Virus record (IMG/VR): IMGVR_UViG_3300025102_000053
Coordinates: 1 to 49,630 of that record
DNA length: 49,630 bases
Strand: one strand, 5' to 3'
Origin: a virus
The translations under genes were made by a program, and so were the position numbers. The notes beneath the pieces are model-generated. The model was not told the origin of the DNA, did no database searches, and was given only the letters and a program-made list of their open reading frames with translations. Each line of letters starts with the position of its first letter. The stretch's first letter is position 1. This document shows positions 2,421 to 48,709 of the stretch, piece after piece.

Positions 2421-2910
2421 AATATATTTAATTAGTAGGGAGGTTGTCTCACTTTCTATGTTGTTTCTTCTTGAGGGAAAACTTGTCTAATAAACTTTCT
2501 CGCAGTACCAAATGGTATTATATCAAAAAGATATTGAGTGCTTTAAATCGCTTTAAATAAAGCCCTGTAATTATTTTAACATATGCAAGTAATTAGTTAA
2601 TTATATTTGCTAACATGTTATAAACATTATGGTTGTTAATAAATAAATATATATTATTGTTTGGATATGTATAGTATATGTATATATTAAAATATAATAT
2701 AATATTATATAAGGTATATACAAATAATATGTATAAAAGTTTTAAAGAAATTGATGTTGAAAAACGAAGGTTCAAAATCCTAGCACATTAGATAGTTAGG
2801 TTTTATGGTTTTGGCAAATCAGTTACGGTACACCCCACCCCCCTAAAAAAATTCGCTTTGGTCGGCAATCGTAACCCCCATCCTATATATAGTTATCCCA
2901 TACCTTTGCA

Positions 2911-2935
2911 TATCTCACTTTTTTTTATAACTTTG
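2911..2935 (+). promoter_or_regulatory. Tandem -7 boxes immediately before the 2940 gene
   Basis: TACCTTTG (2911-2918) and TAACTTTG (2928-2935) both match TAnnTTTG and are both followed by CAT. The second ends only four bases before the ATG at 2940, so a transcript starting from it would be leaderless or nearly so. The first would leave a leader of roughly 20 bases. Confidence 0.5.
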
Positions 2936-2939
2936 CATC

Positions 2940-3206
2940 ATGGCTAAACGAGACTACAAACAGGAGTACAAGGACTTTCAGAAAGATAAGATCGGCTACA
3001 GGGTTGAATTAAAGAAAAAAGATAAAGCTCTAGGTGGTAAGGTTGGTGATGGTAAGGATGTGTCACACAAGAAGGATGGAGGTGTTGTATTAGAGGAGTC
3101 TTCTAAGAATAAAGGCCGCAAGGAAAAGTCTAGAAAGAAGGGTAGTAAAAGAAAGCCATTTGCTTTTTGGAAAAAGAAATCTAAAAAGAAGAAGAAGAAA
3201 AAATAA
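2940..3206 (+). CDS. Small very basic protein with poly-lysine tail
   Basis: An 88-residue protein dominated by Lys and Arg, with glycine/lysine-rich repeats in the middle and a C-terminal run of lysines after KPFAFWKKKS. It has no membrane segment or signal peptide. Such composition suggests binding to DNA or RNA, or electrostatic packing with the genome inside the head; this is inference. Its stop overlaps the ATG of the next gene (TAATG), so the two are translationally coupled. It is followed by two further basic proteins, forming a distinct cluster. No family is recognised. Confidence 0.6.
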   Translation: MAKRDYKQEYKDFQKDKIGYRVELKKKDKALGGKVGDGKDVSHKKDGGVVLEESSKNKGRKEKSRKKGSKRKPFAFWKKKSKKKKKKK

Positions 3207-33601: not shown

Positions 33602-36600
33602 ATGGCAGTAATTTATCAAAAGGATAAGAACGCTATAAAGTTCATACAGGAATTTTACTCAAAATTGACAAAACATAAATTGTCACAATATGAGGTAGAT
33701 AGTATATTAGCTCAATATGATGGAGATTATCATAGCATGGTTAAGGATTTGTATGACAAGCTTTCTGATCACAATTTATCCGAAGAGGAACTTGACTCAG
33801 TAGTTAATCACTACGGGTTAAAAAAAAAAGACTCGGCAGATTCTACATCAGATTCGGAAGGTGGTACATCGGATTTATCCGAAACGAAAACAGATAAAAA
33901 AACCTTTAAAGCTGAAGAAGGTGCTGTTGTTCCAACCGAGGATCAAGACGTTTGGTTGTACAATGATTATATAGGTTATTACCAAAAAAATGGTAGAAAC
34001 GTTCCGCATTCAGATGTTCCTGAAAACATAAAAACAAAACTAAAAAACGAATACCTAGAAAAAACCAATCAAGAGAAAGTTAATATTAAAAATCAGAAAA
34101 TAGATAATGCTATATCTTCTTTAGGAGAAATGGTTGAGACTTCAGGTTTTGATGGAGATTACTCTAAAAGTTTTAAAATACCACAAACAAAAACAGGAAT
34201 AGAAACTTTAACAGGTTTATTAACAGATCCATCAGCAAGAGAGAAATTAGGATATGGATATATGAGTGAGTCTGAAGTAAACGATTATTTGGTTAAATTA
34301 AATAATGCTGAGAATAATCTTGATATATGGAAACAAAATATATCTGATGAGGATTATATAAATATACTTAAACAAGAAAATGAACAAAAAGGTAATAAAA
34401 ACACACCTAGGTTAGATCAACAAAATATAAACGAAAAGTTAGAAAAAAAACAAAAATACGACAACGGAGAGGCTGTTAATCTATATGCGATGCCTTCTGC
34501 CACAGACCCTACTCTTTTTAACCCAAGACCTATAAATGAAGATAATGTTGAAGCACTTTGGACAGGTACAGAAAATCTTTATAAGGTGCCAAAACTTGAT
34601 GATGAAACAACTAGAGAGGGATTATATGGAGCTGCAACATACAATACTCCAGGTTTACAACAGCTTCTTAATTTTAATAAACCTCCAGGTAGTAATGAAT
34701 ATCAGCACACAACAAAAAAAGGTCTTGATGCGTATAATTCTTTATTAAACTTAACCTATGAGGTTGATGATATTAATAAAGAAAAAGAATTAATACTAAA
34801 AGAAGGTGGCGTAAAAGACTGGAATAATTTACCAGATAATTTAAAAAATGAATATCAATTATTACTTGATAGAGAAAAACTTATTGGTAACACGTCTGAG
34901 CGTTGGGATATGGACGCTGAATCAAATGCTCTATTAACTATTTTTAACCAAGAGTTAAGTTTAAGTAAACAAAAAATAGCAGAGGGACAAACTGTTAGTC
35001 AAGATCCAATTTATAACGATAATGATGTGAATCAATTTTTGGTTTACAACTATGATGTTTTTTCAAATAAAAAAGTAGAAAACGCTAGATTTCCTCTTTC
35101 AAACCTTGATTTTAATGATGTAGATAAAGAGACGTTTCAAAGATTACAAATGGAGGCTCAAGAAAACGCATCTTATTTATATACCCCAGGATATATGTTA
35201 TATGGAGATGAAAGTGCATTTACATCAAATCAAGCTGGTCTTATAGATTCTTTACAGTTAGGTAGTGATCAAAAATACACACCAAAAGAAGCTACTCCTT
35301 ATGGCGACATATTATCTTTTAATACTACTTTTAGTCAAAAATATGGATACGGTAAGATAGTAGACATGTCTAAGGAGATTAGAGAACTTTCTGCTGGACT
35401 ATCTAATGAGGAGATATTTGCTAATCCTGAAATAGTAAGTAAAATAAACGACTATCATTACTTTAGTAAAAAAGTAATTTATGACAAAGTCACCGCTGAA
35501 TATGGATTAGATTATGAGGGCGAAATGTCTGCTTTAGGTGGCAATAGGACAATGAGTATGTTTAGGTTAGGGGAGTCTTATCAAAGATTGTTAAATGAAG
35601 AAAAAAGTATTTCAGAACAATTAGAAAATCAGGATCTAGATAATAAGGAAAGAAAAAAACTTGAAAACGATTTTATTAACGTAAGAAACAAAAAAACACA
35701 AAACAGATCTGTTTATAATAAAATTAAAGAAGAGGGTCTACCTGGTTATGATGAGTTATTTAATTTAGTTTCAGGGGATTATGACGATGAGGTTAAAATG
35801 GATCCAGAAAGTAAACTGCAATTTGATAATAGCGTTCAGCAAATAATGACTAGCAGAGAAAAATATTTAGCTTTATACGATCAATATATTCAGAGTTATG
35901 GGCCTGAAGCTGCTCTTAATAAAATGGAGGATCAGATGTTTAAGATAAATGGTAGTATGATGCACATGAATTATATGCACGACAATACCTATATAACATT
36001 ACCATCGGGATCAAAAATACTTGTAGGAGACATGATGAATTATGTTTATACTAATTCAAGAACTCCTGTTAGGATGGGGACTAAGGGTACACGTGAATTG
36101 TACTATAAAGAAGTTGATGAAAACCCTTATTTAGCCTCTGATCAAATAGGTCTACCTGATAATATGTATGGGACACCTGATCAAACTTATGAACAAGGAC
36201 CTTCTATGGGAGCCTCCTCTAAACCAGGACCTCTTTATCAAGGACCTGTTATAAAGTTGGATATGGATGCTTACGGAAAGCTTAATCCAAAAACTAATTT
36301 TCTTGCAAGAAGTGTTGATTATTATTTTGGAGCTAAATATGAAAAAGAAGATTTAAAGTTTATGTATGATCACGCAAAAAAGTTTGCTACTGACTATCAA
36401 TATCACTGGGCTGAGTTGGTTACTATATCAGAAATGATAGCGTGGAATTATGACCCAACCCAAGGGTATACTGAAAGATCAGGAGGAAGTCTTTTTGTAG
36501 AGTCTATGGGAACAGAATTAGGAAGGGGCCTTAAAAATATAAGTAGCAGTATAAGTGTTGCAACGGGGGGTATGGCTTATAAGCCAAATCAAGAATTATC

Positions 36601-39600
36601 AGAAATAGAGCAAAGAGATATGGTGCACAGTATTTTAGTGGGTGCTACTGGTGAGTCAACAGAAGATGCAAAAGCAGAATCTGAATTTGCTTGGTCTCAG
36701 ACATTAGGGTCTGGAACGGGAATGGTGGGTGTAATAATAGCTGAGTTGTTATTTACTAGAAAATTTTCTGTATCCGCTATAAACAAACTTGATAAAGCTT
36801 CTGACGCATTTAAGTCTATAGAAAGATATAAAAAAATAATTCAAAGCTCAAGGGTAGGTAAGGTTTCCTCAACCATACTTAATGACACTTTTGTTGGTGC
36901 CATGTCTTTTGAATTAACTTCTAATCCTGATGTTACTTGGAAAATGGGTGCGGCAGAAGGGTTTGTTCAATCAATTCTTAGTAATTTATTTTTTGGTAAA
37001 AGTAAATATGCTAAATTTTTATTAGGGGCATATAAAAAAGCTCCTAAATCAACAAATGCTGCTTACTGGACCACTAGAACTGCACTAGGGGGTACTTCTG
37101 AAATGTTAGCAGAATATGCTGGTGAATTTACACAGCAACTAAGCGATTTAAATGGAAATTGGAAAGAAGCTTGGATTGCTACATTTGGAGCTACTCAAGA
37201 TGAGGCTCTTCAAAAATTTGCTGTTACAGCTATATTGTGTTATGGAGCGTCTGGTGCTTTTAATTTAAGGACAGCAAAGGGAATGGAGCTCGAGTTACAA
37301 AGATTTGTTGACTCGGGAGTAGGCCCTAACGGACAGCCTTTGTCACCAGAAGCTGTAGCACAAGGTCAAGATTATTTAGATGCTATTGATGAGCATAAAA
37401 AAGGACCAATGGGAGAGCAGATTGATATGTTTGAAAACATGACTTGGGAAGACTCTTCTGAAGCAGCTTTATTTAAACTTGACCAAGAGGTAGATCCAGA
37501 TTTTGCATCTCCTGAAACAAAAACTGTGGTAATTGATGGTGTTCCCACAACTACTTTAGTTGAGCCAGGATCTCCAATTTATTCTGTAGACGGCAATAGT
37601 TTAAGTAAAAAAGATATAATTAAGTTTATAAACGAAGGTGGATTAAGTAGAAAGGATATTGAGGTTGTTATTGAAAATGATAAAGAAGTATCTGATTTAG
37701 CTGAAAACATATTAAATAAAACAACAGAGACAGAGGAGTTAGGAGTAAAGCCTACAGGGCAAAACATAATTTCTACTAAAGGTTCTAATACTAATCTTAC
37801 ACAAAAAAAAGAAACTTGGGATTATAAAAATGACGAAGGTGAAGATAAACGTGTTAATATTAATTATAAAGGAGATGGAACTGTAGAGGTAAAAATGCAA
37901 GATAAAATAGATGGTAAGTGGGAGACTGTACAACAACTTCATAAAATAAATAAAGATTTTCAAGAAAAACATGGAGAAAATTTTGTTCAAGAATGGATTA
38001 AATTAATGGATTATGTTGAAGGGACTCCTAAATTAACTGAATCAATAACAGATGTTAATAAACTATACAGTCAAAAAATAATAGAAAAACATGGTCTTGT
38101 AAACACAACTCCTACTGAAACTGATGATGGTAAACAATTAGATCTTTTTGAGGGAGAATCAACAAGAAGTTCTGCTGGTAATTCAATAAATGTTCCTGCT
38201 GGCCAAAGGGTATTTAACGATCCTAATCCAGGAACAGCTCAATCAACAAAAGATTATATAGCTAAAAACGGAAGTAATTTAGGTATAGATTACTCGCCTC
38301 CACAAGTAGATAATAAAAGAAATGAAGAAAGATCTAAAAGAATAGCTGATGCGTATGATTCTATGGAAAATAATCCTGAGGATCCTAAAACAAAAAGTGC
38401 TTATGAGTCTTTATCTAAAGAGGTTCAAATGCAGTACAATCAAATGATTAGCGATGGTGTTAATGTAGAGATATGGGAAGGGACGGGAGAACCTTATGCT
38501 AATAGTGACGAGATGATTAAAGATGTTAGAGATAACAATCATCTATATATATACTCAACAATAGAGGGTTATGGCGAAACTGAAATTTCAGAAAAAGCTA
38601 TGCAAGATAATCCTTTATTAAGACCAACTGAAAAGGTGGATGTAAATGGAAAGCCATTACTTGTTAATGATTTATTTAGAGCTGTGCACGATTATTATGG
38701 TCATACAGAACTAGGAAATGGATTTGGTGTTATAGGAGAAGAGATGGCTTGGCAAAATCACTCTAGAATGTTTAGCCCTAATGCTAGAAGAGCCATGACT
38801 ACAGAGACTAGAGGACAAAATTCTTGGGTTAACTTTAATAAAAACTTAAGAAACCCAGATGGAACAATACCTAAAAAGGGAGACAATAACTACGTTTCTC
38901 CTAAAGAAAGACCTTTTGCTGATCAAAAAATAGGATTACTTCCAGATGAATTTGTCTTTGTAGAAAGAAAAGGTGTGCAAAAAAACTCAGGCGATAGGGT
39001 GTTTAAGTTTGATTTAAATACAGCGACCTACAGAGGTGCTATAAATGGAAGGGAGATAGAAATTAAAAAGAACCCTTGGAAGAAAGAATGGACTGAGGTT
39101 TCTACAGGTCAGGTAATAGGTAGAACTTTTGGGGAGGCTATGGATAATTTAAGAAATGTTTTTAAAGGTGTTCAAGGTACTGTTTTTTCTTCAGACCCTA
39201 ATTTAAATACAGAATCTTTTCAAAATGCTAAAATTTCTTTAGAAGCCTCAACAAGTGAAACTAATGCTATTCAGCCAGATGTTGTTGTGAAGCCATTTGT
39301 AGATAGCGAAAGTATTATTAATAAAATTAAAAAAAGAAAATATACAAAGCCTCAACTAGAAGCTATTCAAAAAGCTTTAGTAAAAATACAAAAAGCTAAA
39401 GCTGATCCCACATCTATGCCACTGGAGATAGTGCTTGAAGATGGAGGTATTGTTATAAACGATAAAAATCAAGTTGTTTTTAAAACTTACGGATACAATT
39501 TTAGTGACAGCCCTTTACTTGAGGGAATGAATGATCAGCAGAAAATAGAAGTTTCTTCAGAAAGAATGATTCAAGATTTTAATTCAAAAAGATCTATTTC

Positions 39601-42600
39601 GGATCCAGATTTTGGATGGTATAGTAATACAAAAAATGCTATACAGAAAAAGTTTGGACCTAATGCTAATTTATTTATTGAGTTGTTAGGGGTTACATCT
39701 CCACAAGCCACACCCAAAGCTAATTTTCAAAAAGCATCTGAAGCTATACAGATGTATAGCCAAGGATATTTTGACGTAGCTTTAGAAAACTACAATACAA
39801 AAGTTCAGGAGATAATAGAAAAATTTGACTCAGGTAAACTAGGAAACCCAAACTTAGTTAAGACTAGGAATAAAATGATAACCATGGTAAAACAAGCTTC
39901 TGAAAATTCTGGTATAACAAAAATGAACGGAATGAGGTTTGGTATGCAGGGGGTTACGGGTCCTTTAACAAGGGTTTTATATGGTAACTGGATGAGTAAT
40001 AGTCCAGGATTAAAAACAAAACAATTTACAGAAAATCTTTCTGGAAGAAATAGAAGAGCTACTATAGATGTTTGGGCTGCAAGAAACTTAAAAAGATTAC
40101 TTTATGCTGATTCGGGTCTTCCTTGGAGGGCTAGATCTTTTCAAGAAAATGGTGTTAATCCAAAGGACTTTGCTTTTGCACAAAGTGTATACGCAAGAGC
40201 TGCTGAAAAACTTGGAGTCAATATAGATGATTTACAAGCTGCTATGTGGTTTATAGAAAAACAATTTTGGTTTGACAATAACTATGACTCTAATAAGTCT
40301 GGTTTTGAAAAGTCCACAATGTTAGATCAGGTAGAGGCTTCTAAGGCAACGGAAAGGATGGCGATTGGTGCTACTGCTTATATAGGTAATGTAACCGCAG
40401 AACAAAAAGCTAGATTAGATGCTGTTGTTTCAAAAGCTGGTGCAGACGCAAAAGCAAGAGGTGCTTCAGATATAGAAATAGAGGCTGCTATGATAGATGC
40501 TATGCAGGGTGAGTTAAGGTTAAATCAGGCTATTAAAGATCTTAATGATGTTATAGTAAAATTAAATCCAGAGGCAGGAAGAGCTTCTTTATCGGAAGGA
40601 GCATATATGGGCCAAGCAGAGCCTAATATAGATGCTGAAGTTGTATTTACTAAAGACACGGATATTACAAGTGTTGTAGATCAAGTTATAAAAATAGGAA
40701 TGGATAATAATCAAGAGTCTGTGTTTGTTTCTAAAACAACTGACTCAAACCATCCTAATGCTAGACCTTTTACAAGAATTGAGTTTACAGAATCTTTATC
40801 TGATTCTGAAATGGCTGAAGTTTCTAATATACTTACAAAAAATGGTATAACTGGATTTTCAATACACAAAAATCAACAAGGGCAAAATATAGGATTATCT
40901 TTTCAATTTATTCCTGAGTTCTTAATAGATCAAGGACTTACATTAGAAAATGTAAAAGAGTTTGAAAAAAAGCACTTAGAAAATACTGCTAAAGCATTAG
41001 CAGAAACACAATCAACACTTGGTGAAAATATTATAAACACCATAGAGAACGGACATGTTAACACTAAAATTTTTACAAATGGCGAATATGAAACAATTAA
41101 ACAAGAGCAAAAGTCGTTTAAGACTAACCTCCAAACAGAACTTACCAGAAGGCAAGGAGCGGTTGACCGTGGGGACACTTCCAAGGACATCATCGATAAG
41201 CGACAAGGAGATGTTTATGATGAGCGAGGCATTCAAAGATTTCACGTCTTAAATGAGTTTGCTGACAAATTAAAAGAATTACGTAAAGCTTTAGGCTCAA
41301 GGGTTTATAGTGATCCATTTATGATAACACCAACTATTAAGGCTGGTTTATTTGTTATGGAAAAAACTCTTAGAGCTACTTCTAATATAGCTACTTCAAT
41401 AGATGCTGGTATAAACTACATAAAAGCTAATTTAAAAGAAGGTGAAAAGTTTACAAAAAAACAAGAAGCTCAAATAAGAGATTACTTTAAAGAAGAAGTA
41501 GAATCTATTGAAAGACCTGGAGGTATTGATGCAAATAAAGACTCAGATCTAGAGGGTAATCAAGAGATTACTGAAGAGGAAATGGCTCAAAGAGAAATAG
41601 ATGAAGAGTCTGTACAAGAAGATGTTACGGAGGATGCTCCTTCTATAAATGAAAAACCTACTAAAGAAGAGTTGTCAGAAGAAAATATGGACAATATGTT
41701 AGATGATTTACAAACCAGAACAAGATCTAAAATGTCTGGTGGTAAGAGACAGAGCTTGCGTAGATTATTTGAGTATATTAAGTCTGGAAGATTCCGTAAT
41801 GATGCTATGATACAACTTGTTGAGCCTAAGTTTGTTATAAAGAAAAGGTTACAGCAATTAGCTGATCAGTATAATATGGGGGAGTCTGAGTTTGAAGCTT
41901 TATCTCAATTAACATTATGGCTACAAGCACCAGGTGCAGCTAAATCTGAAATAGATGAAATGAATGCTCGTTTATGGAGAGATGAAAATAATATAGTTAT
42001 AATTAAAGGTAAACTTAAAAAAGGTGGAAAAGCTTTAACTAAAGGGCAGATAGAAAATATAGGAATGTTAAATGCCCTAGAAAGAATTATTCAACTAGAT
42101 CAGCTTTCTGATCAAAATAAAGTTGTTATTGATGCGATCATAAAAGAAATAAACGCATCTAAAGATCCAGATCAAATAAAAGAACTAAAAGCTCAATTAG
42201 ATAAATTACTAGACCCTACTGTCTCTAGAATGGGTTATACTGTAGAGGACGGTAAATATAAATTAGTAGCAAAAGTTAATCCCGATGGAGACTTAGTTGA
42301 AGGTAATCTTGTAGAGATTCCTACAGGAATAAATTACAAAGGAGATCAGTATCATAGAAGAAAACACCCAAAAGCAAAAGATAATAAAACTGTAAATAAA
42401 GAATATGCAGAGGGTATGATTGAGGCTATGAAAAGAAAAGAGGGGCCTAAAGAGTTTGAGCTTTTAAAAAGAAAAAGTGATCAAGTTTTTGATGAATACA
42501 AAAGAATATTAAAAGATGATAAAAAAGAAGGTCTTATATCAGAAGAGCTTTATAATGAGTTAAAAGATATAAATTATTCACCTAGAAAGTTTATTGATTA

Positions 42601-45352
42601 CCTTATATTTTCAGAAAGAAATATACTAAACCAAAGAGGAGATGGCCAGTATAGAGTTGATGGGATAGATAAATACATGCAAACATTAAAACATGGTAGC
42701 GATGGTATTTTATATACTGATCCTGTAAGATTGTTACAACAGCGTATAGCACTTGCTCATAAATTAAGATTTGAAAATAAAGCTAGAAAAGGTATTTATG
42801 AATTTATTAAAAAAGTAGAAAACGCTGAAACAACACAAGATCCTGTTCAGAAAAAAAGATTTTCTAATTTATTTGGATTTAGAAAAGGCGAGCCTTTAAG
42901 TGTTAAAGAAACTATAGGTCACACTTTAAAACCTGGTGAATCCGTAAACCCAGAAACACATATAGAGGTTCAGGTTATGGAGGATGGTAAAAAAGTTAAA
43001 TTTGCTATGACTATTGATGCTTACAGAAGTTTTATAGCAACACCTCATGATACTAGCACTAAAGGGTCAAGTCAAAAAAGTATGCCCTTAAAACTTGCTG
43101 AAGGATTTTTTGGTATACCAGGAGGTATATTAAAAACTTTTGCTACTGGTGTGGGGGCTCCTACGTTTTTCTTGGTTAACCTTATTCTTGACTTTACTCA
43201 ACAAACACATTTTACAGACACTTATAGTGGTGGTAGATTATGGTGGAGAAGTATGTTGCCTATAAAATACGGAATGGCTTTTAGTGATTGGATGGCTGTT
43301 AGTAGAGATGCTTTTGTTGGAGGAGAAAGATCTAAAGAGTATGCTAGGTTAGGAGGTAACTTAGAGTTTTTTACTGATTACGGTTTAGGTGGTTATGGTG
43401 ATGTGATGGAAATGAGTCAAGGAAATATATCAGCTAGAGTAAAACAACTTATGGAAGAAAAGGGCATGAATGAGGCTGACGCTGTGGAACAAGCTGCTAG
43501 AGAAGAGGGTTCTGGAGCGTTATTAAAAAATGATTACGATCCTTTTACAAATCCAGAATCCAGGGGTGGTTGGAATACTTCTAAAAAGTGGATTAGTAAA
43601 TTAAACCAATGGTCAGAGACAATGGGTCGTTTGGCTAATATGAGAAGATGGGAGATAAGGTATATAAATGAATATAAAAGTAAGAATGGAGGTGCGGAGC
43701 CAACGGGTATTGATCTTGAAAGAATAAAGAAAAGGGCTGTTGCTAACGCTGTAGAGGCGGCAAACTTTAATAATGGTGGTAGAGCTATAAAAGCTATGGA
43801 TAAGGCTGGGTTCGCTTATTTAAATGCTGCTTGGCAAGTAATGTACAGGGGTGCTAAACATGTAAAAAGAAACCCTGGTATATTTATTTACGAGGCTACT
43901 CAATATGGACTTATGTTTGGTATGGCTTTAATGGCTTACAACCTTAGAAAATATAAATGGACTGGAGAAGAGGAAGAGGATGATATATTAGATCAATTAG
44001 ATAGAGCTAATGAAGAAGGTAATGAAGAAGAGGTTCAAAGGTTAGAGAGTTATTTACAAAAACATAAAGTTTCTTATTTAGATTATATACCTGATTATGA
44101 AAAAGATAGATACCATATAATAATAACTGGATGGAATAATGAAGAGGGTGAGCCTACATATTATAAAATACGTAAGGATGAAAGGTTAAGTTTTATTGCT
44201 AGCCCATTTGAAGCGTTAACTTATAAATCAATGACAGGTAAGCAATATGATTCACGTAAAAACAATTTATTTAATTACACTCCTATTATAGGTCTTAGAG
44301 GTGATGAAAGAGATTTTTATGGCAGAAGGTTCCAAAACGCTTTACCTCCAGGGTTAGGTGATTATAGAGATATATTAACCAGTTCGCCTATGTTAAATCT
44401 TGTCTCTAAAACTGTTTTTAATTACGATACTTGGAGGGATCAAAAAGTTTGGAGAGGAAGTGGGGACTTGAAAGGATTAAACCAATATGAAAAAGCTAAT
44501 GTGTCTGACGACAAATTACTTAAAGATTTATCTTATGGTGTGGATCAGATTTTTGGTAATGAAGGTTTTAATGTAACTCAATGGAAAGAAGGTCTTGGAT
44601 CTATATTTACAAATTTAGATAAAAACCCTTGGTATCAATTAATAGATAATGCTTATATATCTGTAACAGGAGGTTTAACAGATAGAGAAAAAATAGAGTA
44701 TGGGTCAATGTTTAATAAAATGTTAAACGATGCTATACCTGGTTTAGTTGAAACTAAATTTAGTGGAAGCATAGATTTAACAAGAAGGCTTGATTTAGAA
44801 GATCAAGAAGAAATAGATGATGTGGTATATAATGATAAACTTGACAATGCTAATTATCAAGCTGCTTTTAGAGAGGCTCTAAGACAATATGGATATAAAA
44901 TTGATAATAGTGGTTACTATGTAGATGTAGATGGAAATCGTGTAAAAGTTGGGGAGTATGAGGGTGAATATAGGGAGAGGTCATATCATGAAATAGCAGA
45001 AGCCACATTAGCGATTTATAAAATAAGAAACAGAAGATCTGGTTTACCTGAAGCTGAATTATCGGAAGATGATTATAAAAGTATTAAAAGAAGGGTTATG
45101 AACTCTTTTGAGTATGATTATTTAAAGCAACCAGAAGTAAAACAAATAATGTATCACTATGATAATGGTAATATAGAGGGGGCTGCACATATTGCTTTTA
45201 TTGAGTGGAGAAGATTAAAAGAAGGTGGGGATATACAAGAATGGAGAAGGTTTAATAACACAATGTATGATTTAAAGCTTTACGAAAATGAAGAGTTTAA
45301 TGATTATTATTGGGAGCAAATAGACTTCTATAACGAGGATGTTTCAAAATAA
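33602..45352 (+). CDS. Giant polyvalent internal virion protein, 3916 aa
   Basis: The largest gene. It opens with two similar 25-30-residue helical units (FYSKLTKHKLSQYEVDSILA; LYDKLSDHNLSEEELDSVVN), then GAVVPTED (107-114). Residues about 1030-1215 hold hydrophobic segments such as GTGMVGVIIAELLF and GGTSEMLAEYAGEFTQQL, typical of ejected membrane-crossing proteins. Residues 1696-1742 carry a conserved block HDYYGH ... HSRMF ... TTETRGQNSW followed by DQKIGLLP, known in polyvalent phage proteins. About 2029-2165 contains VTSPQATPKANF and ATIDVWAARN (2153-2162). About 2345-2445 contains QESVFVSK (2371-2378). The C-terminal third has an LPD38-like region with GAPTFFLVNLILDF (3185-3198) and AYLNAAWQ (near 3406). 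Polyvalent proteins enter the cell with DNA and carry several effector domains; the functions of these domains are not established. Confidence 0.75.
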   Translation: MAVIYQKDKNAIKFIQEFYSKLTKHKLSQYEVDSILAQYDGDYHSMVKDLYDKLSDHNLSEEELDSVVNHYGLKKKDSADSTSDSEGGTSDLSETKTDKKTFKAEEGAVVPTEDQDVWLYNDYIGYYQKNGRNVPHSDVPENIKTKLKNEYLEKTNQEKVNIKNQKIDNAISSLGEMVETSGFDGDYSKSFKIPQTKTGIETLTGLLTDPSAREKLGYGYMSESEVNDYLVKLNNAENNLDIWKQNISDEDYINILKQENEQKGNKNTPRLDQQNINEKLEKKQKYDNGEAVNLYAMPSATDPTLFNPRPINEDNVEALWTGTENLYKVPKLDDETTREGLYGAATYNTPGLQQLLNFNKPPGSNEYQHTTKKGLDAYNSLLNLTYEVDDINKEKELILKEGGVKDWNNLPDNLKNEYQLLLDREKLIGNTSERWDMDAESNALLTIFNQELSLSKQKIAEGQTVSQDPIYNDNDVNQFLVYNYDVFSNKKVENARFPLSNLDFNDVDKETFQRLQMEAQENASYLYTPGYMLYGDESAFTSNQAGLIDSLQLGSDQKYTPKEATPYGDILSFNTTFSQKYGYGKIVDMSKEIRELSAGLSNEEIFANPEIVSKINDYHYFSKKVIYDKVTAEYGLDYEGEMSALGGNRTMSMFRLGESYQRLLNEEKSISEQLENQDLDNKERKKLENDFINVRNKKTQNRSVYNKIKEEGLPGYDELFNLVSGDYDDEVKMDPESKLQFDNSVQQIMTSREKYLALYDQYIQSYGPEAALNKMEDQMFKINGSMMHMNYMHDNTYITLPSGSKILVGDMMNYVYTNSRTPVRMGTKGTRELYYKEVDENPYLASDQIGLPDNMYGTPDQTYEQGPSMGASSKPGPLYQGPVIKLDMDAYGKLNPKTNFLARSVDYYFGAKYEKEDLKFMYDHAKKFATDYQYHWAELVTISEMIAWNYDPTQGYTERSGGSLFVESMGTELGRGLKNISSSISVATGGMAYKPNQELSEIEQRDMVHSILVGATGESTEDAKAESEFAWSQTLGSGTGMVGVIIAELLFTRKFSVSAINKLDKASDAFKSIERYKKIIQSSRVGKVSSTILNDTFVGAMSFELTSNPDVTWKMGAAEGFVQSILSNLFFGKSKYAKFLLGAYKKAPKSTNAAYWTTRTALGGTSEMLAEYAGEFTQQLSDLNGNWKEAWIATFGATQDEALQKFAVTAILCYGASGAFNLRTAKGMELELQRFVDSGVGPNGQPLSPEAVAQGQDYLDAIDEHKKGPMGEQIDMFENMTWEDSSEAALFKLDQEVDPDFASPETKTVVIDGVPTTTLVEPGSPIYSVDGNSLSKKDIIKFINEGGLSRKDIEVVIENDKEVSDLAENILNKTTETEELGVKPTGQNIISTKGSNTNLTQKKETWDYKNDEGEDKRVNINYKGDGTVEVKMQDKIDGKWETVQQLHKINKDFQEKHGENFVQEWIKLMDYVEGTPKLTESITDVNKLYSQKIIEKHGLVNTTPTETDDGKQLDLFEGESTRSSAGNSINVPAGQRVFNDPNPGTAQSTKDYIAKNGSNLGIDYSPPQVDNKRNEERSKRIADAYDSMENNPEDPKTKSAYESLSKEVQMQYNQMISDGVNVEIWEGTGEPYANSDEMIKDVRDNNHLYIYSTIEGYGETEISEKAMQDNPLLRPTEKVDVNGKPLLVNDLFRAVHDYYGHTELGNGFGVIGEEMAWQNHSRMFSPNARRAMTTETRGQNSWVNFNKNLRNPDGTIPKKGDNNYVSPKERPFADQKIGLLPDEFVFVERKGVQKNSGDRVFKFDLNTATYRGAINGREIEIKKNPWKKEWTEVSTGQVIGRTFGEAMDNLRNVFKGVQGTVFSSDPNLNTESFQNAKISLEASTSETNAIQPDVVVKPFVDSESIINKIKKRKYTKPQLEAIQKALVKIQKAKADPTSMPLEIVLEDGGIVINDKNQVVFKTYGYNFSDSPLLEGMNDQQKIEVSSERMIQDFNSKRSISDPDFGWYSNTKNAIQKKFGPNANLFIELLGVTSPQATPKANFQKASEAIQMYSQGYFDVALENYNTKVQEIIEKFDSGKLGNPNLVKTRNKMITMVKQASENSGITKMNGMRFGMQGVTGPLTRVLYGNWMSNSPGLKTKQFTENLSGRNRRATIDVWAARNLKRLLYADSGLPWRARSFQENGVNPKDFAFAQSVYARAAEKLGVNIDDLQAAMWFIEKQFWFDNNYDSNKSGFEKSTMLDQVEASKATERMAIGATAYIGNVTAEQKARLDAVVSKAGADAKARGASDIEIEAAMIDAMQGELRLNQAIKDLNDVIVKLNPEAGRASLSEGAYMGQAEPNIDAEVVFTKDTDITSVVDQVIKIGMDNNQESVFVSKTTDSNHPNARPFTRIEFTESLSDSEMAEVSNILTKNGITGFSIHKNQQGQNIGLSFQFIPEFLIDQGLTLENVKEFEKKHLENTAKALAETQSTLGENIINTIENGHVNTKIFTNGEYETIKQEQKSFKTNLQTELTRRQGAVDRGDTSKDIIDKRQGDVYDERGIQRFHVLNEFADKLKELRKALGSRVYSDPFMITPTIKAGLFVMEKTLRATSNIATSIDAGINYIKANLKEGEKFTKKQEAQIRDYFKEEVESIERPGGIDANKDSDLEGNQEITEEEMAQREIDEESVQEDVTEDAPSINEKPTKEELSEENMDNMLDDLQTRTRSKMSGGKRQSLRRLFEYIKSGRFRNDAMIQLVEPKFVIKKRLQQLADQYNMGESEFEALSQLTLWLQAPGAAKSEIDEMNARLWRDENNIVIIKGKLKKGGKALTKGQIENIGMLNALERIIQLDQLSDQNKVVIDAIIKEINASKDPDQIKELKAQLDKLLDPTVSRMGYTVEDGKYKLVAKVNPDGDLVEGNLVEIPTGINYKGDQYHRRKHPKAKDNKTVNKEYAEGMIEAMKRKEGPKEFELLKRKSDQVFDEYKRILKDDKKEGLISEELYNELKDINYSPRKFIDYLIFSERNILNQRGDGQYRVDGIDKYMQTLKHGSDGILYTDPVRLLQQRIALAHKLRFENKARKGIYEFIKKVENAETTQDPVQKKRFSNLFGFRKGEPLSVKETIGHTLKPGESVNPETHIEVQVMEDGKKVKFAMTIDAYRSFIATPHDTSTKGSSQKSMPLKLAEGFFGIPGGILKTFATGVGAPTFFLVNLILDFTQQTHFTDTYSGGRLWWRSMLPIKYGMAFSDWMAVSRDAFVGGERSKEYARLGGNLEFFTDYGLGGYGDVMEMSQGNISARVKQLMEEKGMNEADAVEQAAREEGSGALLKNDYDPFTNPESRGGWNTSKKWISKLNQWSETMGRLANMRRWEIRYINEYKSKNGGAEPTGIDLERIKKRAVANAVEAANFNNGGRAIKAMDKAGFAYLNAAWQVMYRGAKHVKRNPGIFIYEATQYGLMFGMALMAYNLRKYKWTGEEEEDDILDQLDRANEEGNEEEVQRLESYLQKHKVSYLDYIPDYEKDRYHIIITGWNNEEGEPTYYKIRKDERLSFIASPFEALTYKSMTGKQYDSRKNNLFNYTPIIGLRGDERDFYGRRFQNALPPGLGDYRDILTSSPMLNLVSKTVFNYDTWRDQKVWRGSGDLKGLNQYEKANVSDDKLLKDLSYGVDQIFGNEGFNVTQWKEGLGSIFTNLDKNPWYQLIDNAYISVTGGLTDREKIEYGSMFNKMLNDAIPGLVETKFSGSIDLTRRLDLEDQEEIDDVVYNDKLDNANYQAAFREALRQYGYKIDNSGYYVDVDGNRVKVGEYEGEYRERSYHEIAEATLAIYKIRNRRSGLPEAELSEDDYKSIKRRVMNSFEYDYLKQPEVKQIMYHYDNGNIEGAAHIAFIEWRRLKEGGDIQEWRRFNNTMYDLKLYENEEFNDYYWEQIDFYNEDVSK

Positions 45353-45370: not shown

Positions 45371-46432
45371 ATGAAAAAATTAATAATAATATTATTAGTA
45401 TTACTAATATCATGTGCTACTCCAAAGAAATGCTGTGCACAAATAGAAGACTTTTTTAAATACTCTACTTTTTATACTTCAGTAACAGTTGGCACGCCCT
45501 TTACAGAAAGAGAAGATTATATAGCGGTAGATAAAGGTTATGAGGACATGACTTGGGTTAGTCCTTATGATTATAATTTAACAATAGGCCTGAGAAAAAT
45601 AGCAAGATTTGATTATGAAACAAAACGCCAAACATGGTATTATGGTACTGAAAGAAATACTGCAGACAACGTTACTATTGGTAACGCTCCTGGTTGGGAG
45701 TACCTTTTTAATTATTCTTTTATACGGAATAGGGGTGATAAGTTTACTGAGCAAAATTTCTGGCTTAGATACCTTGGAAATAAATTCGTTGTCAAAGCAC
45801 AATACACAGACAACCAAAGAGTAGGTTTAAAATATACTTCTTTAGATTATAGATTTAGATTAAATAAAGGTAATTGGGACTTAACTATTGGTAGTGTATT
45901 TAGAGTTCACCCAGCGTATGGGATAAATCCTATTGAGGACTTTTGGGTACCTGGAGAATCTACATTTCAAGATTTAGCAGAAGATTTTGGTTACACCTCA
46001 GAACAGTGGGTACAAGGATTTTATGTAGATCAAAACTGGTATGACGTTAGTAGTGGAGACTCTATATTGATAGCCACATCAAATGATGAATTTTATAATT
46101 GGTGGTTTGGTGATGCAGTCGCAAGATTTAATGAGCAAGAATTAGACAAGTTAGGTTTACAAAAAGAACTTAGTGCTGTAATAGGATTAGCTTATTATAA
46201 ATATACGCCAACAACATGGATACATGGTTGGTTTAATTGTTTACCTTATCATCACGGTTTGGATGAATACTCTTATGAGTATGAAGGTAGCTCTATAGAA
46301 TGGGATGCTGGTTTAGTTTTTGGAACTAGGATAACAAAGAACCTTGGGTTGTTCGTGGAAGGGACCCACATGAAATACTGGGGTAAGAAAATATATGAGA
46401 TGAAATTTGGGTTTAACTATTTAATATTTTAA
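45371..46432 (+). CDS. Phage-encoded outer-membrane barrel-like protein
   Basis: 353 residues. A signal peptide (MKKLIIILLVLLISC) ends in a lipobox-like LLISC with Cys15; cleavage after the CCAQ region by signal peptidase I is an alternative. Alternating aromatic/hydrophobic beta strands follow (TFYTSVTVGTPF, DYNLTIGLRKIARFDYE, GLKYTSLDYRFRLN, WDLTIGSVFRVHP). The last strand, MKFGFNYLIF, ends in Phe as outer-membrane barrels do. It begins a row of exported or membrane proteins. Possible roles are superinfection exclusion, receptor masking or help in lysis; none is shown. I recall similar proteins with the RKIARFDYE segment in other marine phages. Confidence 0.6.
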   Translation: MKKLIIILLVLLISCATPKKCCAQIEDFFKYSTFYTSVTVGTPFTEREDYIAVDKGYEDMTWVSPYDYNLTIGLRKIARFDYETKRQTWYYGTERNTADNVTIGNAPGWEYLFNYSFIRNRGDKFTEQNFWLRYLGNKFVVKAQYTDNQRVGLKYTSLDYRFRLNKGNWDLTIGSVFRVHPAYGINPIEDFWVPGESTFQDLAEDFGYTSEQWVQGFYVDQNWYDVSSGDSILIATSNDEFYNWWFGDAVARFNEQELDKLGLQKELSAVIGLAYYKYTPTTWIHGWFNCLPYHHGLDEYSYEYEGSSIEWDAGLVFGTRITKNLGLFVEGTHMKYWGKKIYEMKFGFNYLIF

Positions 46433-46434
46433 TT

Positions 46435-47139
46435 ATGAAAAGATATATTATAATACTATTTGCGTTTATAAGCTCGTTTGCTTACTCGCAATACGACTTC
46501 CAACAATTATGCTTAGACTGTGCTGAACAAAACGGTTTTTACTGTGGAGATGATCCAGCGAACTGGACACAGTACGCACCAAATGGCTGTGTACCTAATG
46601 GTCCAGACTTGTTTTATCTAAATGATGGTTGGGCAGATTGTGTAGATGAATCTGATGAATCCGAAGCTGCTCCAACGGTAGTAACTGATTGTGCTCCTCC
46701 ACCTCCACCTCCATGTGACACTGTCTATGTCGATGTTATACAATACGAAACTATATTTGATACTATAATTAATACAGAGTACGTATACGAAATTATTATA
46801 GACACCGTAGAGGTAGAGGTGTTTGTACCTGAATTTATATATGTAATTGATACGGTATATGTATATGAAGATATATTAGACACTTTATTTGTAGATGTAA
46901 TTGAATATGTAGATGTAATGGTATATGATACCATTATAGAAATAGAGTACATAGAGTTTATAGAATACATTACAGAGTATGTTGATTGCGAGACTGGATT
47001 GCCTTGTAACTCCAGCATACCTGAATTATTAGATAAATCTAAAAAAGATAATAAGTTTTATAACTTGTTAGGGCAGGCCATAAAAGAACCCAATGGTATT
47101 TACATTGAAGGTGGCCAGGTTAAATATAAACTAAAATAA
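46435..47139 (+). CDS. Exported surface protein with cysteine-rich head and T9SS-like tail
   Basis: 234 residues. A signal peptide (MKRYIIILFAFISSFAYS) is followed by a Cys-rich part (about 26-75, with CLDCAEQNGFYCGDD and DGWADCVDESDE) resembling an LDL-receptor class A repeat. A proline run (PPPPPP) leads to about 100 residues of Asp-Thr-Val/Tyr-Val beta repeats (DTVYVDVIQYETIFDTIINT). The last 27 residues FYNLLGQAIKEPNGIYIEGG, then QVKYKLK, strongly resemble the C-terminal type IX secretion sorting domain (pattern YN.LGQ ... P.GIYI). It starts three bases after the barrel gene and may reach the host surface through the host's T9SS. The function of the display is unknown. Confidence 0.6.
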   Translation: MKRYIIILFAFISSFAYSQYDFQQLCLDCAEQNGFYCGDDPANWTQYAPNGCVPNGPDLFYLNDGWADCVDESDESEAAPTVVTDCAPPPPPPCDTVYVDVIQYETIFDTIINTEYVYEIIIDTVEVEVFVPEFIYVIDTVYVYEDILDTLFVDVIEYVDVMVYDTIIEIEYIEFIEYITEYVDCETGLPCNSSIPELLDKSKKDNKFYNLLGQAIKEPNGIYIEGGQVKYKLK

Positions 47140-47146
47140 TTTTATA

Positions 47147-47374
47147 ATGAATATTTTTAAAGATAGTAATGATTGGAACGAAAAATCAATAGTTGGTTTT
47201 ATAGCGTTTCTTATAATGGTTATTGTAATGATAATCGATTTAGTAACTGGAGCTGTTGGATCAGATTTAGTTATTAACGAATTTGTATATGACTCATTTG
47301 TTTGGGTTGTATTAGGATGTTTCGGTATAAGTGGAATAGAAAAGTTTTCAAAATATACTGAAAAAAACAAATAA
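47147..47374 (+). CDS. Holin-like small membrane protein
   Basis: 75 residues with two membrane helices: KSIVGFIAFLIMVIVMIIDL (about 13-32), and FVYDSFVWVVLGCFGISGI (about 46-64). A short loop and a charged C-terminus (EKFSKYTEKNK) complete the protein. The size, two-helix layout and position ahead of a lysozyme-like gene suit a holin that permeabilises the inner membrane at lysis. I recall similar sequences in marine Bacteroidota phages. An unrelated membrane-anchoring role cannot be excluded. Confidence 0.55.
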   Translation: MNIFKDSNDWNEKSIVGFIAFLIMVIVMIIDLVTGAVGSDLVINEFVYDSFVWVVLGCFGISGIEKFSKYTEKNK

Positions 47375-47392
47375 CAACTATTTAAAAGATGC

Positions 47393-47411
47393 CCCCCCTT
47401 TATTAGGGGGG
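47393..47411 (+). terminator. GC hairpin between holin-like and coiled-coil genes
   Basis: CCCCCCT (47393-47399) pairs with AGGGGGG (47405-47411) around a five-base loop. The following sequence is A-rich rather than T-rich, so full termination is doubtful. It lies 18 bases before the next ATG and could instead limit its translation. Confidence 0.4.
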
Positions 47412-47428
47412 TGTTAAAAAGAAATAAA

Positions 47429-47773
47429 ATGGCAAAAGAATTATCAGAAGATAGCAAGTTTCAGGTTAGTGCTAAAACATTAATTGGTATTGCTGTGGGT
47501 ATAGCAACTGTTATATCTGCTTATTTTGGTTTAATGGGTAGTATAAACTCAAAGTTTCTTGATTTAGAAGATAAAGTTGAAGACGCCTTAGAAAAGCCTA
47601 AGCCAGGGACAGGAACATATACTATAGATATGGGAGATCCTGCCGCTTCACAAACATGGCCTCCAACAAGAATGGAGTTTAACATGAAAGATGAAATGGC
47701 TAGACAGAAAATTGATAATATAATAAAAGAACTAGATGAACTTAAGGAAGAGCTTAAAGACTTAAAGAAATGA
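47429..47773 (+). CDS. Single-TM coiled-coil protein, spanin- or lysis-related candidate
   Basis: 114 residues starting at ATG 47429; an upstream GTG at 47411 lies in the hairpin and is less likely. One membrane helix (TLIGIAVGIATVISAYFGLM, about 17-36), a short proline-rich part (KPKPGTGTY) and a charged C-terminal coiled coil (IDNIIKELDELKEELKDLKK). This order (TM, then periplasmic coiled coil) fits an inner-membrane spanin or an anti-holin; neither has a decisive motif. Its end overlaps the next gene by four bases. Confidence 0.5.
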   Translation: MAKELSEDSKFQVSAKTLIGIAVGIATVISAYFGLMGSINSKFLDLEDKVEDALEKPKPGTGTYTIDMGDPAASQTWPPTRMEFNMKDEMARQKIDNIIKELDELKEELKDLKK

Positions 47774-48171
47774 TAAAAAGAATAGATATTACAGGTTTTG
47801 TTTACGTATTATTAATGATATTAATATTCACCTGTAGTACCGCTTTTAGTCAGGAGTTTGTTTCTTCAGATAATTTTAAAAATAAAATAGCTAAAGACAT
47901 TGTTGTTGTTGAGTTTTGGGCTGGATGGAATGCTCAGAATGAATTTAAAGAATTAGAAAAATTAAAAGATTGTATGGTCTATAGAATAGATATATCAAAA
48001 CACATGGATATTCAAATGAATTATGATGTATCGGCTATACCTACAGTTATTATATTTGACAACGGAATACTTAAAGAAAAATTTGGAGCCACTGTTATGT
48101 TTCAGTTAGATGCTGACAAAAAAACTGTACAGAACTCCATTGATACATTATTACTAAATAAATTTAATTAG
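47770..48171 (+). CDS. Exported thioredoxin-fold protein without catalytic cysteines
   Basis: 133 residues with a signal peptide or N-terminal anchor (about 8-27, VYVLLMILIFTCSTAFS). The thioredoxin fold is seen in VVVEFWAGWNAQNEFKELEK, YRIDIS, then YDVSAIPTVIIFDNGILKEK with the cis-proline P91. The canonical WCxxC is replaced by W53-N54-A55-Q56-N57, so the redox cysteines are missing, which suggests binding or scaffolding rather than disulphide chemistry. It starts inside the previous gene (ATGA overlap) and ends in TAG overlapping the next GTG. In-operon position with lysis genes suggests action in the periplasm. Confidence 0.65.
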   Translation: MIKRIDITGFVYVLLMILIFTCSTAFSQEFVSSDNFKNKIAKDIVVVEFWAGWNAQNEFKELEKLKDCMVYRIDISKHMDIQMNYDVSAIPTVIIFDNGILKEKFGATVMFQLDADKKTVQNSIDTLLLNKFN

Positions 48172-48535: not shown

Positions 48536-48709
48536 ATGAATTGGATAAACTCTTGGAAAAAAGGAAATAAAAAAAACAAACTTGATATTAAATTAAGATT
48601 TGGAACGTTAACTATATTCGAGCTTTACCTTTGCTTTAACTCTTGTGAAAAAGATTGTGGGTGCAAAAGAATGAGGCTTATGATATTAAACTTTGGATTT
48701 GAATTATAA
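48536..48709 (+). CDS. Small cysteine-rich protein, 57 aa
   Basis: A 57-residue frame starting MNWINSWKKGNKKNK, followed by ELYLCFNSCEKDCGCKRMRL and ending ILNFGFEL. The SCEKDCGCK cluster (C-x3-C-x-C) plus an earlier Cys could bind a metal. It fills the gap between the neighbouring genes exactly (stop two bases before the next ATG), and its regular spacing and codon use support a real gene. I recall similar short proteins next to phage lysis genes. Function unknown. Confidence 0.6.
   Translation: MNWINSWKKGNKKNKLDIKLRFGTLTIFELYLCFNSCEKDCGCKRMRLMILNFGFEL

Follow-up and report, generated by a model that had tools for sequence, protein, structure and literature searches.

The gene at positions 46435 to 47139 of the window, meaning the whole 49,630-base stretch analysed, probably encodes a phage cargo of the host type IX secretion system (T9SS), displayed on the host surface by means of a C-terminal sorting tail of the short CTD kind. 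Computation establishes the resemblance of this tail to short CTDs, the neighbourhood of the gene and the conservation of its product. The protein and its parts are the following.

46435-47139, plus strand: tailed, presumably exported phage protein (234 aa), an intact ORF with 86 relatives in viral contigs.
46435-46491, plus strand: signal peptide-like N-terminus recognised by eye, residues 1-19, ending in AYSQ.
46492-46713, plus strand: LDLa-like Cys-rich head, residues 20-93.
46714-46989, plus strand: beta-rich stalk made of DTV repeats, differing in length between relatives, residues 94-185.
47014-47136, plus strand: putative short-CTD-like sorting tail, residues 194-234, with predicted cleavage at 193|194, proposed from the alignment, profile comparisons and the published description of short CTDs.

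The window is a virus record carrying tailed-phage genes, among them those for the terminase large subunit, the portal and virion proteins, all with strong PHROG matches. The terminase matched 158 phage records; the best listed are 39-44% identical and belong to one member of the Caudoviricetes and then to Flavobacterium phages, and phages of Cellulophaga, Tenacibaculum and Maribacter are also included. Re-reading the ORF of the tailed protein confirmed the coordinates, plus strand and translation given for it in an earlier note. Its relatives, retrieved by a scan of viral contigs, form a conserved family of uncultured phages. Of the 86, 80 were kept, yielding an alignment of 81 sequences, 80 of them distinct; L064, whose tail is cut off, was left out of the tail counts, which use 80/81 sequences, and the residues ahead of the likely Met were trimmed from L013 and L026 before counting. 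A comparison with 50,697 phage records gave zero matches to the tailed protein at E<=10 and no match to the neighbouring barrel or to the tail, whereas PHROGs gave a single weak hit to the tailed protein, with a family of unknown function.

The N-terminus, MKRYIIILFAFISSFAYSQ, reads by eye as a signal peptide, as had been claimed, and the Gln19 closing it is found in 78/81 aligned sequences. Seven cysteines (Cys26, 29, 37, 52, 69, 86 and 94) are kept in 81/81 aligned sequences, and Cys185 and Cys191 are present in all 80 sequences reaching those positions. The LDLa-like head proposed from the first inspection has a real resemblance behind it, PF00057 being matched at E<=10 in 20 of 25 family members, but this resemblance is weak (best E 0.0033) and the window protein itself is unmatched. 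The head shares with the LDL-receptor class A domain (PF00057), whose model has six cysteines, a pattern of cysteines and acidic residues, NDGWxDCxDxxDE, and differs from it by these weak Pfam scores and by the fourth cysteine, replaced by Asn63 in 81/81 sequences. The full family profile gave four weak matches among solved structures, one of which is an LDLa fragment; the AlphaFold model of the protein (pLDDT 45, with 54-77 for the blocks of the tail) is too poor for a fold search. Searching species genomes with the family profile revealed similar heads in three bacterial proteins, one from a Crocinitomicaceae MAG and two from Marinimicrobiota MAGs. Both of those with a complete C-terminus (2/3) carry a T9SS CTD scoring over the TIGR04183 cut-off, and the third is truncated where its contig stops.

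The DTV-type beta repeats described earlier are borne out, each protein containing between 2 and 12 DTx units (n=80). The length differences within the family are due to the stalk, which varies from 28 to 170 residues and whose length follows that of the whole protein with r 0.99 (n=80). Such a repetitive beta-rich stalk, in a window where virion proteins are encoded elsewhere, could belong to a fibre or decoration protein of the virion, in which case the hydrophobic start and the tail would have a function in assembly. This origin is nevertheless very unlikely for a protein that keeps a signal-peptide-like start and its cysteines, and whose steady neighbours are a barrel and small envelope proteins.

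Calculated over 262 non-independent pairs of 75-95% identity, uncorrected pN/pS is 0.17 in the stalk, 0.21 in the head and 0.33 in both the signal peptide and the tail; purifying selection seems to act on every part. The equal relaxation of the signal peptide and the tail fits the expectation for two tags that are presumably both removed. That similar heads and tails occur in bacteria could also point to a host gene acquired by chance, without any benefit tied to surface display; conservation disfavours this origin, and pN/pS values of 0.17-0.33 in every part, the 86 viral relatives and the steady neighbours together render it highly improbable.

Short CTDs were described in Prevotella intermedia, in which 48 of them were reported as T9SS signals; measured from the cleavage site, the first 22 have 40-51 aa and the full set of 48 has 43-55 aa (PMC11969387). 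According to this description, the cleavage consensus is PT/GI, Ile being the most conserved residue and the sites having been determined for five short CTDs; motif B includes an invariant Gly and a strong Tyr, with R/K preferred after the Gly; motif D consists of GxY followed by Ile, its Gly being absolutely conserved; and motif E is basic. The cleavage motif lies 6-11 aa from motif B, and motifs B and D are separated by 1-6 aa (PMC11969387). The experimental proof of short CTDs concerns P. intermedia, stated in 2025 to be the only species reported with both CTD kinds (PMC11969387).

The phage tail fits most of the features of this short-CTD description. Like the P. intermedia signals, it stands at the extreme C-terminus of an exported-type protein and displays an Ile at +2, the Tyr and Gly of motif B, in most members a GxYI resembling motif D, and a basic motif E. 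From the predicted cut to the C-terminus, it measures 40-42 aa in 80/80 proteins, i.e. within the 40-51 aa range and just below that of 43-55 aa, the phage cut site being a predicted one, and a basic residue (K/R after the last Gly) is found at the end of 80/80. Around the predicted cut, Ile occupies +2 in 61/80 tails, a small residue +1 in 79/80 and Ser/Thr -1 in 70/80; the Pro of the PT/GI consensus is missing in the window protein. These counts, and that of GxY, come from tails parsed with a pattern that itself demanded the motif-B Gly and [YF]I. Gly213, Ile224 and Gly227 are invariant in the 80 complete tails, and Tyr209 and Tyr223 are each present in 79/80, with one Phe at each position. 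Judging from the alignment, the conservation of the tail is above chance.

Some positions depart from the P. intermedia signals. The residue after the motif-B Gly is mostly Gln rather than R/K, which occur in 4/80 phage tails, and the GxY of a motif D-like sequence, GIYI in the window protein, is found in 63/80 tails, whereas its Gly is invariant in P. intermedia. The distance from the +2 position to the motif-B Tyr is 13-14 residues, at or beyond the published 6-11 aa depending on where the motif limits are set; in 80/80 tails, six residues separate motif D from the residue that follows the motif-B Gly. In its low-confidence AlphaFold model, the tail comprises a single helix (194-205) and between two and four short strands, including 221-225 and 228-232, as well as short bridges. 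The fold of type A domains is a seven-strand beta-sandwich. The fold reported for short CTDs is a single three-stranded sheet with an occasional helix in a loop (PMC11969387). PorV-dependent export, sortase cleavage and glycan attachment also characterise short CTDs of the P. intermedia type, and for the phage tails they would be predictions drawn from sequence.

Against solved structures, the tail gave 17 weak matches, the best of which, HSH49, was judged to be due to chance; 4kca_A and 7jvi_A were matched near their C-termini with E-values of 0.036 and 1. The tail of 4kca led to a replicon of 567,798 bases from P. nigrescens, a close relative of P. intermedia. Over this whole replicon, the phage tail profile has three matches at E<=10 (5.3e-5, 0.043 and 0.19), and all three end five residues before the stop in proteins that were also found by a separate search for short-CTD proteins. 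Ten such proteins were collected by iterated search from four regex seeds, the regex having given five hits among 766 P. nigrescens ORFs, one of which was judged spurious; two of the ten, L334 and L344, were restored by hand after a crude signal-peptide test had rejected both.

Compared by hhalign with the ten P. nigrescens short CTDs, the tail profile reached a probability of 94% and a score of 34.1, a level attained by 0/200 shuffles (median 8.3, maximum 16.7); for comparison, host long CTDs, which are known to be related, reach 29.0 with the same ten. Four of the ten host tails had been picked by a motif common to the phage tail, so this comparison is not fully independent, and it was therefore repeated on the six tails not picked by the regex, giving 89% and a score of 29.4 (0/100 shuffles, maximum 15.3). 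Both alignments extend over 25 columns, from motif B to motif D, and leave the cleavage site and the end uncovered. Under a model built from the ten host tails alone, the window tail receives 9.9 bits, and the median over the 80 phage tails is 12.6 (1.0-19.6). The null sets excluded the phage family and these ten tails: the highest score among the 1179 remaining ORF ends of the phage loci is 5.1 bits, and five of 756 other P. nigrescens ORF ends reach 9.9, the top three of them being long-CTD-like by eye. Gln after the motif-B Gly is also found in 2/10 P. nigrescens tails.

The final residues had originally been labelled as a type A T9SS sorting pattern, with a TIGR04183 search suggested as a check. 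This search was run and returned no match in the window and, at E<=10, none in the protein or in 25 family members, and PF18962 matched neither the window protein nor 25 family members at E<=10. Membership in the type A sorting domain was thus rejected, the curated models being unmatched and the tail measuring 40-42 aa versus 69-82 aa for the long CTDs of P. intermedia (PMC11969387); its resemblance is to short T9SS CTDs rather than to those of 69-82 aa. That TIGR04183 finds no match is itself weak evidence against a sorting tail, because both models also miss the short CTDs of P. nigrescens. Indeed, TIGR04183 brings 0/8 of these sequences over its cut-off of 23, three scoring 13.5-16.1 bits and the other five being unscored, while PF18962 matches 0/5 short CTDs and gives 41 bits to a long CTD. 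A T9SS-type sorting tail on a phage protein, the core of the earlier claim, therefore finds its support in short CTDs, through the hhalign result and the replicon matches, and not in TIGR04183.

Likeness to long CTDs appears modest. In a model made from 40 host long CTDs, phage proteins score poorly, with 8.6 bits at most. The tail profile compared with the same 40 long CTDs gave a probability of 42.6% and a score of 19.9, above all column shuffles (0/100, maximum 14.0), and the aligned part is the motif-B region of the long CTDs; with other settings, the probability was 37.8% for the untrimmed alignment and 1.9% with -glob.

Tails of the phage kind are rare in hosts. Across 399 genomes of the order of the Crocinitomicaceae MAG, the tail profile matched 9 at E<=0.01, with 11 matches in total. 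The five best end at most seven residues from the C-terminus of signal-peptide-like proteins belonging to two protein families; among the other six, the five inspected lie further in, and L099 is the sixth. The host proteins at L094-L098, of about 190-215 aa and from two families, have short-CTD-like tails, two of which were checked against TIGR04183 and found unmatched. In a sample of the phylum, 3/395 genomes gave matches at E<=0.01, all partial, located 76-500 residues from the frame end and none C-terminal. A DNA pattern for the tail was found in 6/299 genomes, at seven places, with two matches for the reversed-pattern control, and in a phylum sample in 2/247 genomes, one being a long CTD (L236) and the other place having no such protein. 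The 4kca tail matched 1/296 genomes of a phylum sample, by a long CTD, and phage records at chance level only. SprA is present in 7/7 checked genomes with such tails and in 0/14 control genomes.

The tailed gene stands in a row with other genes for envelope or membrane proteins, recognised from models, families or sequence features.

45371-46432, plus strand: predicted outer-membrane beta-barrel (353 aa), the partner gene, assigned from an AlphaFold2 model and structural matches, in 78/80 loci.
47147-47374, plus strand: small membrane protein (75 aa), holin-like by eye, in 46/80 loci.
47429-47773, plus strand: protein with one TM and a coiled coil (by eye), of spanin-like topology, in 73/80 loci.
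47770-48171, plus strand: thioredoxin-fold protein (PF00085, E 2.2e-9) with an export-signal-like start and WAGWNAQN instead of a CxxC, in 71/80 loci.

The barrel gene, on which the earlier note is silent, stops two bases before the start of the tailed gene, which is a strong contextual clue. The AlphaFold2 model of the barrel has a pLDDT of 72 and a pTM of 0.70, and its best listed solved structures are Tsx (VIA-align Z 15.8, 186 aligned, 3.3 A), EstA (Z 14.3) and KdgM. PorV has a FadL-type 14-strand fold. Neither PorV nor FadL is among the 50 listed structural matches of the barrel, although families outside this list may still match, and a search of Pfam and NCBIfam at E<=10 gave 0 families, leaving PorV and PorP/SprF, the T9SS outer-membrane components, unmatched. 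An exporter role of the FapF or autotransporter type was considered for the barrel and rejected: such barrels are listed, but a common fold shows no function. A viral relative of the barrel, A0A516LKJ4, was found in BFVD (30% identity, E 2.8e-26).

The barrel is located upstream of the tailed gene in 78/80 loci, the other two being cut off 1 and 93 bases from the contig edge, and the gap between both genes is at most 50 bases in 48 of these 78 loci, 51-1000 bases in 28 and larger in two. Starting from the barrel, in a search whose contig set overlaps with that of the tailed gene, a family member is found within 2.5 kb downstream in 76/80 loci, and 2-70 bases remain in the other four. Two of these truncated cases, L080 and L142, are the two ends of one contig of 88,886 bases, with the tailed gene at its start and the barrel at its end, as in a circular genome cut between both genes. 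A pairing as complete as this in the near clade, with its short gaps, might mean that the tail is a module for binding to the adjacent barrel, which would keep the protein in place on the periplasmic or outer side without any T9SS. The tail search in viral contigs offers a further case: the 80 best loci out of 120 comprise 79 with the head motif of the family, a count that rests on this short motif, and one, L314, encoding another body (2590-3129, plus strand) that has the same tail, no LDLa head and still, at its locus, a fragment of a distant barrel. Such a module nevertheless seems rather unlikely, since similar tails are found on host proteins and since the barrel of a second, distant clade does not need the tailed protein, which is absent from 27/34 of its loci.

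This distant clade comprises barrels about 38% identical, among the matches listed, on contigs of up to 245 kb. A tailed protein is present in 7/34 of its loci, always without the LDLa head. One of these, at L367 (from 6209, plus strand, 207 aa), stands beside the distant barrel and has a lipoprotein-type start; such a start is unusual for T9SS cargo. A strict obligate pairing of barrel and tailed protein thus holds in the near clade and is broken in the distant one, and the barrel would be the more general element, with the tailed protein as a frequent companion. It has also been envisaged that both form a surface-display unit of the phage, in which the barrel would be both the phage's own receptor and the anchor for the short CTD and the host T9SS would be borrowed partly or not at all, an arrangement regarded as distinctly unlikely.

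Downstream of the tailed gene, the holin-like protein, the protein with one TM and a coiled coil and the thioredoxin-fold protein would be compatible with a lysis module in which the first two, the barrel and the tailed protein open the outer membrane late in infection. Their frequency at the loci speaks for this; however, the neighbours belong to no lysis family at a trusted score in Pfam or PHROGs, the 75-aa membrane protein having no PHROG at E<=1 and a sub-threshold Pfam match only. An LDLa-like head on a stalk is, to our knowledge, not a known lysis part, and a lysis function for the group is considered unlikely. The coiled-coil gene probably starts at the ATG at 47429 and not at the listed GTG at 47411, a relative beginning with MSKELSEESK. 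A hairpin-like stretch of a C-run and a G-run, gccccccctttattaggggggtg, extends over 47385-47430 (plus strand) and overlaps the listed GTG start. Further on, a 57-aa protein starting with MNWINSWKKGNKK (48536-48709, plus strand) occurs in 42/80 loci and in 25/34 loci of the distant barrel, at a varying position. On the other side of the barrel, a single ORF of 3916 aa occupies 33602-45352 (plus strand); its last 400 residues are matched in 6/80 related loci, and the cassette thus sits in varied backgrounds.

Returning to the tailed protein as a short-CTD cargo, we infer from the T9SS literature the presence of a T9SS in the host, as well as the timing of expression, export, cleavage, display and role of the protein. 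The tailed protein, encoded together with the outer-membrane barrel and small envelope proteins, would be routed by its signal peptide via Sec into the periplasm. Its last 40-42 residues, as a short form of T9SS CTD, would then be caught by the host translocon and PorV, and cleavage by the host sortase would follow residue 193, in the T/GI-like site, possibly with attachment of lipopolysaccharide to the new C-terminus. The LDLa-like head would then stay exposed on the outside of the infected cell, carried by its DTV stalk. The likeliest use of such a protein would be to alter this surface, for instance to exclude other phages; superinfection exclusion is a first guess as to its role, with lysis and adhesion as alternatives.

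T9SS cargo encoded by phages is, as such, already in print (PMC7468147, PMC6949934). Cryophage carries genes for proteins with T9SS sorting domains, and use of the host system was proposed for them (PMC7468147). The likeness lies in these phage-encoded proteins bearing T9SS sorting domains; as described there, however, the domains are of type A and are carried by an endoglucanase, a GH39 and a PA14 protein (PMC7468147), whereas here a putative short CTD ends an LDLa-like stalked protein encoded beside a barrel gene. Similarly, crAss-BACON phages have T9SS sorting domains in their genomes, upstream of the head section in one cluster, but these are gut phages and BACON domains are involved (PMC6949934). 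For short CTDs in phages, a literature search covering few subscription journals found no paper.

If the reading as short-CTD cargo is true, a phage group of at least 86 relatives carries a minimal T9SS sorting tag, and this suggests that short CTDs exist outside P. intermedia. Since the standard models TIGR04183 and PF18962 miss this minimal tag, the use of T9SS export by phages would then be under-counted. The tail would also provide a natural signal of 41 residues, conserved over 80 relatives, as material for asking what PorV needs. Finally, the barrel and the tailed protein would constitute a concrete gene pair in which to look for superinfection exclusion, or for remodelling of the cell surface, by phages that infect Bacteroidota.
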